DNA of 34,973 nucleotides, from assembly GCA_003702465.1 (NCBI GenBank), contig REGF01000004.1, positions 1-34,973 of the forward strand, written 5' to 3'. The DNA comes from Candidatus Nitrosomarinus sp. GTDB lineage: Archaea; Thermoproteota; Nitrososphaeria; Nitrososphaerales; Nitrosopumilaceae. The notes beneath the pieces are model-generated. The model was given only the letters and a program-made list of their open reading frames with translations, was not told the DNA's origin and did not search any database. The position numbers and the translations under genes are program-made. Of the stretch, positions 22,334 through 33,167 are shown one piece after another. Each line of letters starts with the position of its first letter. Positions within the stretch are counted from its first letter, which is position 1.

Positions 22334-23245
22334 ATGGAAGCTGTAGCATTTTGTCCTGCACACATAACTGGATTTTTCAAAGCTCATGTTAATCAAGATG
22401 AAAGAATTTTAGAAAATTTAGGTTCAACTGGAGCAGGATTTTCAATAAAACAAGGAGTTACTACATCAGTTAAAATCAATATTAAAAATAATGACAAAGA
22501 AAATTTTCAAATTATTACAAAAGGATACAAACCTGATAAAACAAATATTTCAGAATATGTCATAAAAGAATTTTTGAAACTAGGAGAATTTTCAAACTTA
22601 TTTTTTAATATCGAACATGAAATAACAATTCCTGTAGGATATGGACTTGGTTCAAGTAGTGCAGTTGCTTTATCACTTGCATTTGCATTAGATCAGGCTC
22701 TTAAAACAAATTTAGATAAAAAAATTATTGGACAAATTGCACATAATGCAGAAGTTAATTGTAAAACAGGCTTAGGAGATGTATTGGCATCATATTATGG
22801 TGGTTTTGAAATTAGAGATAAACCAGGAGCACCAGGAATTGGTCATGTTGAAAAAATTAATTTAGAAAAAATTTCTATCATTATGATATGTTTTTCTCCA
22901 ATTTCTACAAATAAATTCATCAAAGAAAGATTACCACAAATAAATGGTCTAGGTGGAAAAATGGTTAATCAATTATTAAAATCAAAAGACTATGAACACT
23001 TTCAAGATATGTCATTAGAATTTGCAAAATATGTTGATGTAATGACACCAAGAATGCAAAAAGTTGTTGATGAATTATCTCAAAATAATATTAAATGTGG
23101 AATTGCATTATTTGGTGAAACAATTTTTTCCATGGTTCCAAAAGAAAAAGAAGATACAGTTGTAAGAATTTTAGAAAAATTTTCTGAGGGAGAGATAATT
23201 AAATCAGAATTAGATCAAGTAGGTGCTCGAATTCTTAATAATTAA
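22334..23245 (+). CDS. Pantoate kinase (archaeal CoA pathway)
   Basis: GHMP-family kinase converting pantoate to 4-phosphopantoate, the archaeal replacement for the pantothenate-first route. 303 residues. N-terminal CPAHITGFFKAH, the phosphate loop IPVGYGLGSSSAVALSLAFALD, and a late GIALFGETIF segment are as in archaeal pantoate kinases. Assignment is strongly supported by the next gene, phosphopantothenate synthetase (starts 3 nt after this stop), then panB and coaBC. Other GHMP kinases (homoserine, mevalonate) are unlikely given this context. Confidence 0.95.
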   Translation: MEAVAFCPAHITGFFKAHVNQDERILENLGSTGAGFSIKQGVTTSVKINIKNNDKENFQIITKGYKPDKTNISEYVIKEFLKLGEFSNLFFNIEHEITIPVGYGLGSSSAVALSLAFALDQALKTNLDKKIIGQIAHNAEVNCKTGLGDVLASYYGGFEIRDKPGAPGIGHVEKINLEKISIIMICFSPISTNKFIKERLPQINGLGGKMVNQLLKSKDYEHFQDMSLEFAKYVDVMTPRMQKVVDELSQNNIKCGIALFGETIFSMVPKEKEDTVVRILEKFSEGEIIKSELDQVGARILNN

Positions 23246-23247
23246 AA

Positions 23248-23988
23248 ATGACATTGATTCCTAAATCACATCCTAGGTTAGATTCTCTCTTAATTCGTGA
23301 AAAATTAGTGAAAGGATTTGATAATAATTTAGTAGCCAAAGAAGGTCTATTAGCTCATGGTAGAGGAGAAACATTTGATTATCTATTAGGTGAAAAAACC
23401 TCAAAATCAGCTAAAGAAGCGATAAAAGCTGCTGCATTTATGCTCACAAATGCACAAAATTCTGTAATTTCAGTGAATGGTAATTTTGCTGCTTTATGCC
23501 CACAAGAAATAATTCAATTAGCAAACTATACGAATTCAAAAATTGAAGTAAATTTATTCTATTCAACTGAAAAACGTAAAAAAGCAATTACTAAAATTTT
23601 AAAAAAATCAGGGGCGAAAGAAATTTTTGGCTTAAATAAAAAATCATCTGTAAAATTATCAGGAATCGATAGTAATAGGAGAATTGTGGATAAAAATGGA
23701 ATATTTTCAGCAGATGTTGTATTAGTTCCATTAGAAGATGGAGATAGAACAATTGCATTAAAAAAAGCAAAAAAGAAAATTATTACATTTGATTTGAATC
23801 CACTTTCAAGAACTGCTCAAACGGCAGATATTACAATAGTGGATAATGTAATACGTGCAATGAAGTTACTAGTAATAGAATCAAAAAAGAAAACACAAAA
23901 AATGTCAAATTATGATAATAAAAAAAATCTTCAAGTATCAATTTTAGAAATTAAAAAAAATTTAGAGAGACGAGCAAAAAATGCATAA
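23248..23988 (+). CDS. 4-phosphopantoate-beta-alanine ligase (phosphopantothenate synthetase)
   Basis: Joins 4-phosphopantoate and beta-alanine using ATP to give 4-phosphopantothenate. 246 residues of the DUF137 family. Family motifs: HPRLDSLLIREKLVKGF, GLLAHGRGETFDYLLGE, SVISVNGNFAAL and FDLNPLSRTAQTADI. Length matches the family (about 250-260). It sits between pantoate kinase (2-nt gap) and panB, whose start it overlaps by 8 nt, so the unit is translated together. The Lys-rich C-terminal tail (SKKKTQKMSNYDNKKN) is less conserved. Confidence 0.96.
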   Translation: MTLIPKSHPRLDSLLIREKLVKGFDNNLVAKEGLLAHGRGETFDYLLGEKTSKSAKEAIKAAAFMLTNAQNSVISVNGNFAALCPQEIIQLANYTNSKIEVNLFYSTEKRKKAITKILKKSGAKEIFGLNKKSSVKLSGIDSNRRIVDKNGIFSADVVLVPLEDGDRTIALKKAKKKIITFDLNPLSRTAQTADITIVDNVIRAMKLLVIESKKKTQKMSNYDNKKNLQVSILEIKKNLERRAKNA

Positions 23989-24796
23989 AAATTTTAAAAA
24001 TATTTTAGAAATGAAAGGTAAAGAAAAAATTACTGTTTTAACTGGATATGATTCCACTATGGTGACACTATGTGATCAAGTTGATGTGATTTTAGTAGGC
24101 GATAGTGCAGGAATGGTCATGTTAGGATATGAAAATACATCTTCAGTAACTATGGAAGACATGATTAGATTTACAACTGCTGCAAAGAATGGAAGAAAAA
24201 ATTCATTGATTGTTTCAGATTTACCAATTAATTCATACAATACAAAAAAAGATGCAGTTGAAAATTCATTGAAATTAATTGAAGCTGGTGCTGATGCTGT
24301 AAAATTGGAAGGAGGTAAAGAAGTTGCAGAAATAATTAAATCAATTACAGAAGCCAAAATTCCTGTAATGGGTCATTTAGGGCTATTACCACAAACTGCT
24401 CAAAAATATACAGTTCAAGGAAAAACAAAAGATAGTGCGTTGGAATTAATTGAAGATGCAGAAATAATAACAAAATCAGGCGTATTTAGCATAGTTTTAG
24501 AGATGGTTTCAAGTCAAGTTGCTAAAATAATTACGGAAAAAATTTCTGTACCTACAATAGGAATTGGATCTGGTAAATTTTGTGATGGACAGGTTCTAGT
24601 TGTTCATGACATGTTGGGACTATTTGAAAAAATTAAACCTAAATTTGCAAAAAGATATCTATCTTTAGCTGATGAAATAAGAAATGCTGTGAAATCATAT
24701 ACAATAGAAGTTAAAGAACAAAAATTTCCAGATATTGAAAATGAATTTCAAATGGAAGAATCAGAATACAATAAACTGAGGAAAGAAATTGAATAA
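23981..24796 (+). CDS. panB: Ketopantoate hydroxymethyltransferase
   Basis: Makes ketopantoate from 2-ketoisovalerate and methylene-folate (or a one-carbon carrier analogue), the first step toward CoA. 271 residues of the PanB TIM barrel. Motifs: TVLTGYDSTMV, VDVILVGDSAGMVMLGYENT (metal-binding Asp), the acidic SDLP strand, VKLEGG, MGHLGLLPQ and GIGSGKFCDGQVLVVHD. Overlaps the upstream synthetase and the downstream coaBC by 8 nt each. The remaining ketopantoate reductase is not in the window. Confidence 0.97.
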   Translation: MHKNFKNILEMKGKEKITVLTGYDSTMVTLCDQVDVILVGDSAGMVMLGYENTSSVTMEDMIRFTTAAKNGRKNSLIVSDLPINSYNTKKDAVENSLKLIEAGADAVKLEGGKEVAEIIKSITEAKIPVMGHLGLLPQTAQKYTVQGKTKDSALELIEDAEIITKSGVFSIVLEMVSSQVAKIITEKISVPTIGIGSGKFCDGQVLVVHDMLGLFEKIKPKFAKRYLSLADEIRNAVKSYTIEVKEQKFPDIENEFQMEESEYNKLRKEIE

Positions 24797-26030
24797 AAAA
24801 GAACTAGATCACCCATCATTAGACATAGTAGAATCAAAGGGAACTGGACTTTCTGGGAAAAAAATTGTTTTATGTGTTGCTGGAAGTGTTGCAGCTTACA
24901 AATCAATTGAACTAGCAAGATTACTAATGAGACATGGTGCAAAAGTAACATGCGTAATGAGTAATGCTTCAACGAAAATGATTCAACCTGATTATATGAA
25001 ATGGGCTACAGGAAATGATGTAATTACAAAATTAACAGGTAAGTTAGAGCACATCAATATTGCAGATTATAAAAAATCAGATCTCATTATTGTTTATCCT
25101 GCAACTGCAAATACTTTAGGAAAACTTGCAAATGGTATTGATGATACACCAATTTCAACAGTATTAACAGTGGGATTTGGTTCTAAAACACCAATTCTAA
25201 TGGCTTTAGCAATGCATGCATCAATGTATGAAAATGCTGCTGTTAAAAAAAATATTTCATTTTTAAAAAATAAAATTGATTTTATTTCACCAAATATGAT
25301 AGAAGGAAAAGCCAAAGCTTCAGAACCAGAAGAAGTTCTAGAATATGTTTTAAAGAAATTTGGATTATCACCAAAATTACATGGCAAAAAAATATTGATG
25401 ACAGCAGGACCTACTATTGAACAAATTGATCCAATTAGAGCCATTACAAATCTAAGTTCAGGTAAAACAGGAGTGAGTTTAGCAAAAGAATTAGTTTCTG
25501 CAGGTGCAAAAGTTACATTTGTCTACGGACCAGGAAGTGAAAAACCACCAAAAGGAGCAAAAATAATCAATGTAATGACAAGTAAAGAAATGTACAATTC
25601 TGTCAAAAAAGAATTAAAAAATAAATTTGATGTCGTAATTATGGCTGCTGCAATATCAGATTATATTCCAACAAATCCTAGTAAAAAGAAAATAAAAAGC
25701 TCAAAATCAAGTATTACAATTAACCTCAAAAAATCACCAAAGATTATTGACGAAGTTAAAAAGTTGCAAAAAGATGTTATTCTTATCGGTTTTAAAGCTG
25801 AAACAAATGTTACAAATGCTCAATTAATTAAATCAGCAAAAAGAAAATTAAAAGAATCGTCATCAGATTTAATCATAGCAAACGATATTGGAAAAGAGCG
25901 ATACAAAAAAAATTCTAATAATAATCAAATCATAATAGTTGATTCAAAAAAAAGTATTACCTCAGGTTGGATGAAAAAAGAAAAAATTGCAAAAATTATA
26001 AAAAAACAGATTGAATTAAGATTAGAATGA
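24789..26030 (+). CDS. coaBC: Bifunctional phosphopantothenoylcysteine decarboxylase / synthetase
   Basis: Condenses 4-phosphopantothenate with cysteine and decarboxylates the product to 4-phosphopantetheine. 413 residues. N-terminal flavin decarboxylase domain (about 20-190): IVLCVAGSVAAYKSIELARLL, the catalytic His in EHINIAD, and YPATANTLGKLANGIDDTP. The region where bacteria have PAMN reads ALAMHASMYEN. C-terminal synthetase domain (about 195-410): ILMTAGPTIEQIDPIRAITN with SSGKTG, and GFKAET. Start is TTG 24789, overlapping panB by 8 nt; the methyltransferase gene overlaps its stop by 4 nt. Confidence 0.96.
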   Translation: MNKKELDHPSLDIVESKGTGLSGKKIVLCVAGSVAAYKSIELARLLMRHGAKVTCVMSNASTKMIQPDYMKWATGNDVITKLTGKLEHINIADYKKSDLIIVYPATANTLGKLANGIDDTPISTVLTVGFGSKTPILMALAMHASMYENAAVKKNISFLKNKIDFISPNMIEGKAKASEPEEVLEYVLKKFGLSPKLHGKKILMTAGPTIEQIDPIRAITNLSSGKTGVSLAKELVSAGAKVTFVYGPGSEKPPKGAKIINVMTSKEMYNSVKKELKNKFDVVIMAAAISDYIPTNPSKKKIKSSKSSITINLKKSPKIIDEVKKLQKDVILIGFKAETNVTNAQLIKSAKRKLKESSSDLIIANDIGKERYKKNSNNNQIIIVDSKKSITSGWMKKEKIAKIIKKQIELRLE

Positions 26031-29232: not shown

Positions 29233-30243
29233 GTGACTGAAGAAAAGAAAAAGAAAGTAGTAGCATTACTTTCTGGTGGCTTAGACAGTCAACTTGCAAT
29301 AAAGATGATGCAAGAACAAGGTTTTGATGTTTCTGCAGTTGCAATCAAAACTCCATTTTGTGATTTTGATTGTGGAAGAGGATGTGGTTTTGAAATTAGA
29401 GAAAGAGCAGATGATCTTGATGTAAATCTAAAAACAGTTTATCTAGGTGATGAGTATATTGAAATGTTAAAAAAACCAAAACATGGAATTGGTGCAGGAT
29501 TTAATCCCTGCATTGATTGTAGATCTATGATGTTTGATGCTGCAAAAAAACACATGGAGGAAATTGGTGCAGAGTTTATAATTTCTGGTGAAGTATTAGG
29601 ACAAAGACCAATGAGTCAACATGCACCTGCATTACATACAATTGAAAAAGAATCAGATTTAGTTGGAAAAATTGTAAGACCACTATCTGCTGCATTGTTA
29701 CCTGAAACAGATCCTGAAAAAGATGGTTTAATCAAAAGAGAGAATCTTGGAATGATTAGAGGTAGAACAAGAAAAAATCAATTAGAAATGGCAAAAAAAT
29801 ATGGAATTGAAAATCCACCAAATGCTGGAGGGGGTTGTTTGTTAACAGAACCACATTTTGGAATTAAAGCAAAAGATTTGTTTGAACATACAAAAAATCC
29901 AACAATAAATGATATCGATTTATTAAAAATTGGTAGACATTTTAGATTAGATGAAGAAACAAAATTTGTTGTTGGAAGAAATAAAGATGAAAATGAAATG
30001 ATAAAAGCAATTGCATTACCAGATGATATTTTACTTGAAGCAAAAGATTTTTTTGGTCCAGTTTCAATTTTACGGGGAACTGATTTAAAAAAACATCTGA
30101 AATTTGCAGCATCTGTTACTTTAAGATATTCAGATGCACCAAATGATAAAACAGCAATTGTTTTGATAAAAAATAATGATTCTGATGAAGAAATTTTTTC
30201 AGAGAGTGCAAAAGAGGAATCATACATTCAATTTAGAATGTAG
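29233..30243 (+). CDS. PP-loop ATPase, tRNA thiouridine synthesis-like
   Basis: 336-residue adenylating enzyme resembling MnmA/ThiI tRNA thiolation proteins. The PP-loop SGGLDS is at residues 14-19. Cysteine-rich motifs follow: Cys43-x3-Cys47-x3-Cys51 (FCDFDCGRGCGF) and Cys93-x2-Cys96 in NPCIDCRSMMFDAA, the latter like the MnmA NPC motif; another Cys lies near 202 in GGGCLL. ISGEVLGQRPMSQ is a typical substrate-loop segment. The C-terminal 100 residues form a separate domain (VVGRNKDENEMI). The cysteines could bind an Fe-S cluster or carry sulfur. Start is GTG 29233. Exact tRNA position and nucleoside are unknown. Confidence 0.85.
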   Translation: MTEEKKKKVVALLSGGLDSQLAIKMMQEQGFDVSAVAIKTPFCDFDCGRGCGFEIRERADDLDVNLKTVYLGDEYIEMLKKPKHGIGAGFNPCIDCRSMMFDAAKKHMEEIGAEFIISGEVLGQRPMSQHAPALHTIEKESDLVGKIVRPLSAALLPETDPEKDGLIKRENLGMIRGRTRKNQLEMAKKYGIENPPNAGGGCLLTEPHFGIKAKDLFEHTKNPTINDIDLLKIGRHFRLDEETKFVVGRNKDENEMIKAIALPDDILLEAKDFFGPVSILRGTDLKKHLKFAASVTLRYSDAPNDKTAIVLIKNNDSDEEIFSESAKEESYIQFRM

Positions 30244-30316
30244 GCGTGAAAAATCTGAAAAATTAGTTAAAACTAAGGAAGAGTTTTTGAGGAAGTAGAT
30301 CTCATTTTTAATCATA

Positions 30317-30595
30317 ATGCAAAAGCAAGAAAACCCTACATATCTCAAGGCAATTACAATTAGAGATAGTAGTGATGTACATTCTATCAAAGAAGATATC
30401 AAAAAAGGAATTATTTTGATTCTCAGAGTTACTCCATTGGCACAAAAGGATGTAGATCAATTGCGCAAAGTTGTTGAAGAATTGTATTCAATTGCTAAAA
30501 CAGCTGATGCAGATATTGCAAGATTAGGTGAAGAAAGAATAATTGTTACTCCATCTAGTATAAAGATCTGGAAACCAGAATACGATTTAAAATAA
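30317..30595 (+). CDS. sepF: SepF-like cell division protein
   Basis: 92-residue SepF core domain (DUF552). Diagnostic segments: TYLKAITIRDSSDVHSIKED, IILILRVTPLAQKD and the C-terminal DIARLGEERIIVTPSSIKIW. SepF anchors FtsZ at the membrane in bacteria and in FtsZ-dividing archaea. The usual N-terminal amphipathic membrane-targeting helix is short or missing here (the protein begins only about 8 residues before the core). Ammonia-oxidizing archaea are thought to divide with the ESCRT-like Cdv system while keeping an FtsZ homologue, so the role here is open. The 3' end overlaps the convergent aCPSF1 gene by 9 nt. Confidence 0.92.
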   Translation: MQKQENPTYLKAITIRDSSDVHSIKEDIKKGIILILRVTPLAQKDVDQLRKVVEELYSIAKTADADIARLGEERIIVTPSSIKIWKPEYDLK

Positions 30596-32527
30596 TTTTA
30601 TAGCTTCTTGTACTTGAGGATAATGAGCAGGAAGTTTGAACGTTCTTCTAATATTCATTGCAAGGTTTTCTGATTTTGAACGTTCACCGTGATTAACTAA
30701 TACACGACGTAGTTTTGGTCTTAATCTTTGTACAAATGACATTAATTGGTTGTAATCACTATGTCCACTAAATCCATCTAATTTTTCAACACCACAGTTT
30801 ACAGAAACAACTTCAACTTTGCCTTCTTTACCTAACATTGAAACTTGTTTAGAACCATCTAGTACACGTCTTCCTAAAGTTCCATTGACTTGATATGAAA
30901 CGAATACAACTTTATTTTTTGGATCAGGAGCAATATTTTTGAAATATTCTAAAACAGGTCCACCCTCTAACATTCCAGATGTTGCCAATATTATACATGG
31001 AGAATCTTCTCTCATTGGTTCCTCTCTAGCATCAGCATGTTCAATATTTGTAAAGTATTCAGAATCAAATGGATTATCATCAGTTTCTAAAATTTTTTGT
31101 TTTAATTCTCTTGCAAGATATTCAGGATATGACTCATGGATTGCGGATGCTTCAGAGATCATACCTTCAGTAAAAACTGGAGCTTCAACCATTTCACCAG
31201 ATTTCATATAATGATCAATTACCATCATGATTTCTTGTGCACGACCAACTGCTGGAATTGGGATTAAGACTTTGCCCCCATCTGCTAAAGTATTGTTAAC
31301 TGCATTGATAAAAGAAGATTCTACTTGTTGTCTTGTAGGTTGTACATCTTCTCTAAGACCATATGTACTTTCAATTAGTAAAGTCTCAACTCTGGGAAAA
31401 TTCCAACTTGCAGCTTCAAATAAAATACTTTTTCCAAATTTGATATCACCAGAATATACAAAATTGTGATCACCATTACCAATATGAAAATGACATAATG
31501 CAGAACCAAGAATATGTCCTGCATTAGCAAGTACTAATTTAATGTCAGGGGAAATATCAGTTACAGTTCCATATGGTAAAGTAATTGTTTGTCTCATTAC
31601 TTGTTTAACATCTCTTTCAGCATACATTGGAGTTCTACCTTGTGCTGCTGCAACTTTAATTGCGTCTAGTTGAATTAAATTCATCATAGGTAATGTCGGT
31701 TCACTGCAGTAAATTGGACCTTTGTAACCATATTTGCATAATGCTGGTAAAAATCCAGTGTGATCTAAATGAGCATGTCCAATTACTACAGCATCAAGTT
31801 CGTCTAATGTAATATCTAGGGAATCAAGTCGTGGATAGGAATCCATAGGAGAACGAGCACCAGGATTTATTCCGCAGTCAACCAAAATTTTACTTTCTGG
31901 TGTTGATAATAGCATTGAAGATCTTCCAACTTGACCAAAACCACCAAGAGTATGAAGAGATACTTCAGTTCTCTGTGATAAACGAGGTCTAAAAATGTCA
32001 TCCCCAACTTGCTTCATTTGTTTACTTCTTTCAGCAGATGCTTGTTTTAGAGTCGAATTGATTGTTTGGATAGTTCGTGATGGGACTGTAGTAGCTTTTC
32101 TAATTCTTAATCTCCATCCAATTTTTTCTGTTAAATCAGCATGATTGAACTCTTTAGCATTTCTTTGTAACAACCAAGGTCTTTTTGCCTCAATTGATAC
32201 TTCACCAGTTGAAGTGTCAAACAGTGTAGCTTGTAAATTAGCTTCTTCAGGTACATGTTCAGCAATAATTTTTCTACATTCATCTTCTGGTTTTCTTATT
32301 GATTCATCAGTACGAATAACAATTCGTTTTTTAATTATGTTAACAAGTTTTGAAATTGTTTCATTATTTTCTAAAAGATATCTAGGCGAATTTGTGTAAA
32401 GTGCAATCCTTGGTCCTTCATATTCTATCTTTGTTATACTAGCTTCTTTTGGCATACTTTGCAGTATGGTTGCCATTATATTCTGGCTGCTAGGAGGTAA
32501 TTCTTTTGGAGGTTGTTTTTTTTGCAT
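30587..32527 (-). CDS. aCPSF1: aCPSF1/FttA, KH-domain beta-CASP ribonuclease and termination factor
   Basis: RNA endonuclease that cuts nascent transcripts after U-rich tracts and ends transcription in archaea. N-terminal KH domains (to about residue 145), then a metallo-beta-lactamase fold with HAHLDH and NAGHILGSALCHF, and a beta-CASP domain with late histidine motifs GFSGHSDYNQL and VNHGERSKSE. The track start (32566) overlaps proteasome beta by 32 nt and adds MNKRKQLSNFSDL; I prefer the in-frame ATG 32527, 7 nt after the psmB stop, giving 646 residues. The overlap and the low similarity of the extra segment to the family favour the shorter form, but this is not certain. Co-transcribed with psmB. 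Confidence 0.93.
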   Translation of the reverse strand: MQKKQPPKELPPSSQNIMATILQSMPKEASITKIEYEGPRIALYTNSPRYLLENNETISKLVNIIKKRIVIRTDESIRKPEDECRKIIAEHVPEEANLQATLFDTSTGEVSIEAKRPWLLQRNAKEFNHADLTEKIGWRLRIRKATTVPSRTIQTINSTLKQASAERSKQMKQVGDDIFRPRLSQRTEVSLHTLGGFGQVGRSSMLLSTPESKILVDCGINPGARSPMDSYPRLDSLDITLDELDAVVIGHAHLDHTGFLPALCKYGYKGPIYCSEPTLPMMNLIQLDAIKVAAAQGRTPMYAERDVKQVMRQTITLPYGTVTDISPDIKLVLANAGHILGSALCHFHIGNGDHNFVYSGDIKFGKSILFEAASWNFPRVETLLIESTYGLREDVQPTRQQVESSFINAVNNTLADGGKVLIPIPAVGRAQEIMMVIDHYMKSGEMVEAPVFTEGMISEASAIHESYPEYLARELKQKILETDDNPFDSEYFTNIEHADAREEPMREDSPCIILATSGMLEGGPVLEYFKNIAPDPKNKVVFVSYQVNGTLGRRVLDGSKQVSMLGKEGKVEVVSVNCGVEKLDGFSGHSDYNQLMSFVQRLRPKLRRVLVNHGERSKSENLAMNIRRTFKLPAHYPQVQEAIKLF

Positions 32528-32534
32528 TAAATCA

Positions 32535-33167
32535 CTAAAGTTCGATAACTGCTTTCTTTTGTTCATCGGTTAATAGACGGAATCCATCTTTGTCCATTAC
32601 TGCGATGTTTATTCCATCACCAGTACCAATGTTTCTAACGATTGCAGCTTTAACAGCTCTTAAAGCTATTTTTTTTGCCTCTTCAACTGTGAGGTCATTT
32701 CTATATTCTTCTTCCAATAAACCATAAGCTACTGGAGAACCACTTCCAGTTGTAACATAAGATTTCTCTTCAACAGAACCAAACATATCAACATTAAACA
32801 ATGCAGGACCACTTGAATCATAACCACCTAGTAAGATATCAGCCATGAAAGGATATCCTCTGTTTTGATGGAAGATCAATGAACATAATCTTGCCAAGGA
32901 ATGAATAGATATTGAATTTTGTTTGTCTACTCTGTGTAAATTAGAATGATATCGTAAAACATCTACAATATTTTGTGCATCTGCAACACCACCTGCTAAA
33001 GTTAAACCTGCGTGTTTGTCAATTTGTTGAATTTTCATTGTATTGTTATTTGCAATAAAATATCCAGCGCTAGCCCTCATATCTGCGCATAAAACAACAC
33101 CATCTTTTGCCTTAATACCTACAGTGGTAGTCCCATGCAAAATTTTTTCTTCAACGTTTGTAGACAA
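32535..33167 (-). CDS. psmB: Proteasome beta subunit (catalytic)
   Basis: Threonine protease of the 20S proteasome core. 210 residues; a 12-residue propeptide ends at Gly12 and the mature chain starts at Thr13 (ILHG/TTTVGIKA). The catalytic set is present: Thr1, Asp17 (CADMRASAG) and Lys33 (NNNTMKI) in mature numbering. GSGSPVAYGLLEEEY is the typical late motif. Starts at TTG 33167 preceded by AAAGGGA. It is upstream of aCPSF1 in one operon and divergent from egsA. Many ammonia-oxidizing archaea carry more than one beta gene; the presence of another is unknown here. Confidence 0.97.
   Translation of the reverse strand: MSTNVEEKILHGTTTVGIKAKDGVVLCADMRASAGYFIANNNTMKIQQIDKHAGLTLAGGVADAQNIVDVLRYHSNLHRVDKQNSISIHSLARLCSLIFHQNRGYPFMADILLGGYDSSGPALFNVDMFGSVEEKSYVTTGSGSPVAYGLLEEEYRNDLTVEEAKKIALRAVKAAIVRNIGTGDGINIAVMDKDGFRLLTDEQKKAVIEL

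Follow-up and report, generated by a model that had tools for sequence, protein, structure and literature searches.

SepF has been described as the general archaeal anchor of FtsZ (PMC12583498; PMC7617429), and the task of FtsZ in Nitrososphaeria has been posed as a question in the literature (PMC3684127; PMC11082331). The sepF gene of a Candidatus Nitrosomarinus contig raises the question whether its product can be such an anchor at all, and what it might do otherwise. A first-pass annotation of the window (the whole analysed stretch of 34,973 nucleotides of contig REGF01000004.1) had described a clear SepF core preceded by about 8 residues, too few for the usual helix, and had proposed that the protein has another role or uses another anchor. 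The following features concern the gene and its start:

30317 to 30595, plus strand: sepF, encoding a core-only SepF of 92 aa (open reading frame with ATG start, PF04472, SepF fold).
30317 to 30340, plus strand: codons 1 to 8, MQKQENPT, hydrophilic, where a membrane-targeting helix and linker are expected (sequence; compared with 29 other Thermoproteota SepFs).
30341 to 30574, plus strand: SepF core, residues 9 to 86, with the invariant DxxRLGxxR and TP positions (alignment and model).
30296 to 30298, plus strand: in-frame TAG stop closing the upstream frame (sequence; frames closed in 80/80 relatives).

The core is as clear as had been described: PF04472 matches residues 12 to 84 over profile positions 3 to 72 of 72 (48 bits, E 1.5e-12, Pfam; curated cut-off 27 bits), and the AlphaFold model (pLDDT 86) has the SepF fold, its nearest PDB entries being the archaeal SepF-like 3zie and 3zig (TM 0.80-0.81). 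Identical SepF proteins are present in named Nitrosopumilus records. According to the profile matches, the Nitrosopumilus-like genome holding the window (1.13 Mb, 111 contigs, 90% complete) encodes one SepF, one FtsZ-like protein, one CdvA, and three Snf7/CdvB proteins; a second, anchored SepF was not found in the profile search of this assembly, which is about 90% complete.

Concerning the N-terminus, MQKQENPT is all that stands before the first strand, in agreement with the earlier count, and the amphipathic membrane-targeting helix and linker are absent (eight hydrophilic residues, closed upstream frame). A misplaced start, with the helix supplied by an upstream extension, has next to no probability: The TAG stop lies 18 bases 5' of the ATG and none of the six codons in between (ISFLII) is ATG, GTG, or TTG, such that an N-terminal extension is impossible in the sepF frame, and in 80/80 named Nitrosopumilaceae relatives the position of the ATG is identical, with a stop ending the upstream frame within 0 to 22 codons. 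The upstream start that the first-pass annotation had considered is excluded by the TAG, and the sequence rules out an upstream extension, barring recoding or a non-standard start. Core and fold make the protein a SepF, but in the defining feature that was tested it does not qualify as an FtsZ membrane anchor; both the conserved core and the missing anchor are direct observations.

Among 200 Nitrososphaeria genomes, PF04472 was found in 178, and in 163/169 of those at least 90% complete. In the 71 Nitrososphaeria loci read, SepF is core-only, the median distance between the core and the most upstream start codon possible being 10 residues (in L065-L070 the core was assigned too far upstream by the script, and by eye about 10 to 20 residues precede it). 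The one longer frame, L063, contains ambiguous bases and is an artefact; its sister L064 is short. Some lineages of the class possess 12 to 23 residues ahead of the core, within which there may be a weak membrane peptide. In other Thermoproteota the corresponding median is 37 residues (29 loci), and most SepFs there carry 27 to 159 extra N-terminal residues, many opening with a basic amphipathic helix (e.g., MSSFSKALEKLFRKQKK and MPKFNRFIGKMFGKRGRG). Short forms outside the class are found in f21, f23, f31, f34, and one genus of f40, so that shortness is not unique to Nitrososphaeria. In a tree of the SepF core alone, a single, weakly supported branch (76) separates the Nitrososphaeria SepFs from the others. 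Since the loci of the class are core-only and most sister Thermoproteota are extended, the anchor appears to be absent from Nitrososphaeria or to have been lost early in the class. A published account of a missing SepF anchor in ammonia-oxidizing archaea was not found in open-access full text.

A protein that has lost its anchor, whose partner FtsZ is degenerate and whose lineage is held to divide by Cdv (PMC3684127), might be a functionless, decaying remnant of an FtsZ division system. Strong purifying selection on the sepF codons is, however, directly observed (pN/pS 0.079), the frames are intact, and the gene is retained across the class at the frequencies given above; selection and retention disfavour a relic, and the remnant reading is improbable.

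The FtsZ-like protein of the window's genome (L002) possesses a degenerate nucleotide motif, NLAGKAGSA instead of GGGTG(S/T)G, and scores 47.6 bits against the NCBIfam ftsZ cut-off of 295, but its model (pLDDT 81) has only FtsZs as best structural matches (E 2.5e-18), such that the FtsZ fold is kept. FtsZ of N. maritimus is non-polymerising (PMC3684127) and gives a diffuse cellular signal (Pelve 2011, cited in PMC7613921); together with the Cdv genes of the genome, this agrees with the earlier characterization of a lineage that has an FtsZ homologue and is thought to use Cdv.

The C-terminal end of this FtsZ is SIDCKLDLYQLE, and the tail is flexible in the model (residues 306 to 315 below pLDDT 50). 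It is conserved (...LDWETPDCSIDCKLDLYQLE), and this conservation is directly observed. A profile built from the last 22 FtsZ residues in ten representatives of the window's family was run over 2,759 ORFs. It matched the extreme C-termini of sister-class FtsZs, with L293 ranked first, L292 second, and both L297 and L295 among the best eight (LDIKLNLYQME, ELNLYQLE, and DLGLYQLE or IDLGLYQLE). The scores are singly weak (best E 0.044, short motifs), and the placement of the matches at the very ends of FtsZ proteins would not be expected by chance. In archaea, an FtsZ tail with a GID motif at its centre binds the SepF groove (Pende and colleagues, PMC8178401), which the S/P-ID of the present tails seems to resemble. 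The genomes with the matched tails (G200, G321, G301, G254) encode an N-terminally extended SepF; because the FtsZ of the window's genome has a tail like that of FtsZs from such genomes, it is more likely here that the link to the membrane was lost than the link to FtsZ. Outside the class, LYQLE-type FtsZ was found in 0/8 genomes with short SepF vs. 8/15 with long SepF (Fisher 0.019), a comparison counted by hand on few, partly draft genomes. The tail is less alike in deeper Nitrososphaeria families, where the strict motif was found in 13/27 (shuffled mean 0.18).

Some Nitrososphaeria lineages also carry a canonical FtsZ, the end of which is often basic-aromatic (KPKRRWWG, KKKRFFSFLH, RKKRFLGMF). 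One FtsZ type of sister classes ends similarly (RLGPIRLW, GRFKLPWK); L034-L039 and L298-L302 are the canonical FtsZ loci of the class and its sisters with such ends. Judging by composition, as a guess, these tails may bind membranes directly. A canonical FtsZ with such an end was not found in the window's genome by profile search.

SepF and the FtsZ-like protein go together across the class: 165 of the 200 genomes have both, 13 SepF only, 4 FtsZ only, and 18 neither, with genomes absent from the match tables assigned by elimination as being without a match. This co-occurrence is directly observed (Fisher 6e-14, relatedness not fully corrected for) and persists without family f12 (1.3e-5) and among genomes at least 90% complete (2e-4). 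In f12, neither SepF nor FtsZ was found in the profile tabulation of the 200 class genomes. Two genomes, G082 (98% complete) and G190, are without SepF and FtsZ and have kept CdvA and a Snf7 match, so the SepF-FtsZ pair can be lost while the Cdv system stays.

The neighbours of sepF on either side are the following:

30587 to 32566, minus strand: FttA/aCPSF1 (KH, beta-lactamase, beta-CASP, RMMBL; Pfam), convergent with sepF.
30587 to 30595, no strand: tail-to-tail overlap of the sepF and FttA frames, 9 bases, with the same layout across the phylum.
29233 to 30243, plus strand: ThiI-like / NFACT-R_2 protein, upstream neighbour (Pfam; 39/71 class loci, 0/33 outside).

FttA adjoins sepF in 58/71 class loci and in 32/33 other Thermoproteota loci. 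Across loci L001-L148 the overlap usually comprises 4 to 14 bases, with 9 in the window's family and 14 in many others, and probably because of it the last six sepF codons are nearly free of amino-acid change (pN/pS 0.004). The arrangement pairs a division gene with a transcription termination factor, and this pairing is conserved; for archaeal sepF in general, the context has been described as variable (Pende and colleagues). A published connection between sepF and FttA was not found in the literature searched, where both words occurred together only in a review.

With such a neighbour, SepF might act independently of FtsZ, possibly in connection with FttA/aCPSF1 or with nucleic acid. The two genes are convergent neighbours in 98/100 loci having both (71 of the class, 27 outside; many class loci from close relatives), and the SepF model bears a distant likeness to the RNA-binding domain of IF3 (1tig, E 0.01), a likeness that is, however, expected of any SepF core. 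Furthermore, near-complete genomes with SepF and without detected FtsZ exist both in the class (G008, one contig, 99% complete; G012) and in another class (G237, 100% complete; G223); they go against a published claim that genomes without FtsZ have no SepF either, and from G008 and G237 it follows that SepF may in part work without FtsZ. An independent role is nevertheless quite unlikely, given how strongly SepF and FtsZ occur together or are missing together, and given the conserved FtsZ tail. Nor does the synteny explain the missing anchor, since it is found also in sister classes with extended SepF and FtsZ.

Upstream of sepF, an inverted repeat (TTAGTT-AA-AACTAA, 30263-30276) is present in many, but not all, relatives, and is followed by a conserved GAAGAGTTTTTGAGG block; both together are a possible regulatory site. 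Elsewhere in the window, positions 22334-26030 hold a cluster that resembles, by eye from the translations, archaeal coenzyme A synthesis (pantoate kinase, phosphopantothenate synthetase, PanB, CoaBC).

The main competitor of an unanchored SepF is a borrowed anchor, in which the SepF core would bind a PRC-barrel protein, for instance the N-terminal CdvA domain or a PRC protein standing alone, and so tie the FtsZ remnant to the Cdv machinery. It takes this place because SepF of Haloferax is found in a complex with PRC-barrel proteins and CdvA itself has a PRC barrel as its N-terminal domain (PMC10936438); the window's genome has both CdvA and a tandem PRC protein. The latter (155 aa, L181:979-1446) has relatives in the same family and is a possible counterpart of the Haloferax CdpB proteins. 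One PRC protein examined is a zinc-ribbon protein and not CdvA. The distribution of the proteins does not fit well: Short SepF occurs where CdvA is undetected (f11, f13, f14, most of f15; G067, G096, G196, G197), CdvA exists without SepF and FtsZ in G082 and G190, and PRC matches are nearly limited to the window's family and f12 (61 sampled genomes), Pfam detection of CdvA and PRC possibly being insensitive. A borrowed anchor is on this evidence unlikely, if somewhat less so than an FtsZ-independent role. As judged from the sequences, the lack of the SepF anchor is class-wide and is seen also in the absence of detectable CdvA and alongside canonical FtsZ, such that shortness of SepF as a direct result of Cdv is not supported.

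The preferred reading, to which we give about an even chance, is that of a true SepF core without helix and linker, most likely binding the degenerate FtsZ, the unanchored pair being a separate conserved module beside Cdv. SepF would still dimerise and clasp the C-terminal tail of a degenerate, probably non-polymerising FtsZ; the complex would not be held at the membrane by SepF and would reside in the cytosol; constriction would be the task of a Cdv ring, apart from the FtsZ-SepF module. As no membrane anchor is recognisable in either protein and polymerisation of this FtsZ is unlikely, a soluble complex is the simplest assumption, and it would fit the diffuse FtsZ signal in N. maritimus for which PMC7613921 cites Pelve 2011. 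The missing membrane part and the conserved FtsZ-binding part together suggest that the pair is used for something besides an ordinary division ring, most plausibly, at low confidence, as a cytosolic regulatory or scaffolding complex. That the pair, throughout a whole class of archaea, has abandoned filaments as well as the membrane anchor and now serves in soluble form for signalling or scaffolding, beside Cdv division or controlling it, is a more tentative proposal. From the earlier suggestion of another role or another anchor, the short N-terminus and the Cdv setting have stood, and the choice between role and anchor is itself a matter of interpretation. A class-wide anchor-less SepF with kept FtsZ tail and pairing turns the task of an unanchored FtsZ-SepF pair in Cdv-dividing cells into a testable question.

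Despite the general similarity of the cores, there are clear differences from the known systems. The SepFs of the sister Thermoproteota f18, f27, f36, f50, and f54 have the same core, sepF is situated tail-to-tail with FttA there too, and several of these families share the FtsZ tail motif with the FtsZ of the window's genome, but their extra N-terminal residues are without counterpart in the window SepF. The Nitrosopumilus FtsZ-like Nmar_1262 shares the variant motif AGKAGSA with the FtsZ of the window's genome, and the work describing it (PMC3684127) is silent on SepF and on the conserved FtsZ tail. With the archaeal SepF anchors of Methanobrevibacter smithii, Haloferax volcanii, and Odinarchaeota, the window SepF has core and fold in common, and these are likewise paired with an FtsZ bearing a conserved C-terminal tail; however, M. 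smithii SepF possesses an amphipathic helix (residues 1 to 12) and a linker up to residue 54 (PMC8178401), both lacking here, and the N-terminal helix of H. volcanii SepF, MGIMSKILGGGG (PMC8187382), has no counterpart either. Unlike in these anchor systems, the partner FtsZ of the window SepF is degenerate. SepF-domain proteins with roles besides that of the main Z-ring anchor exist in Streptomyces (SflA and SflB); these are bacterial paralogues accompanying a full SepF, whereas the short SepF is the only one in the window's genome.
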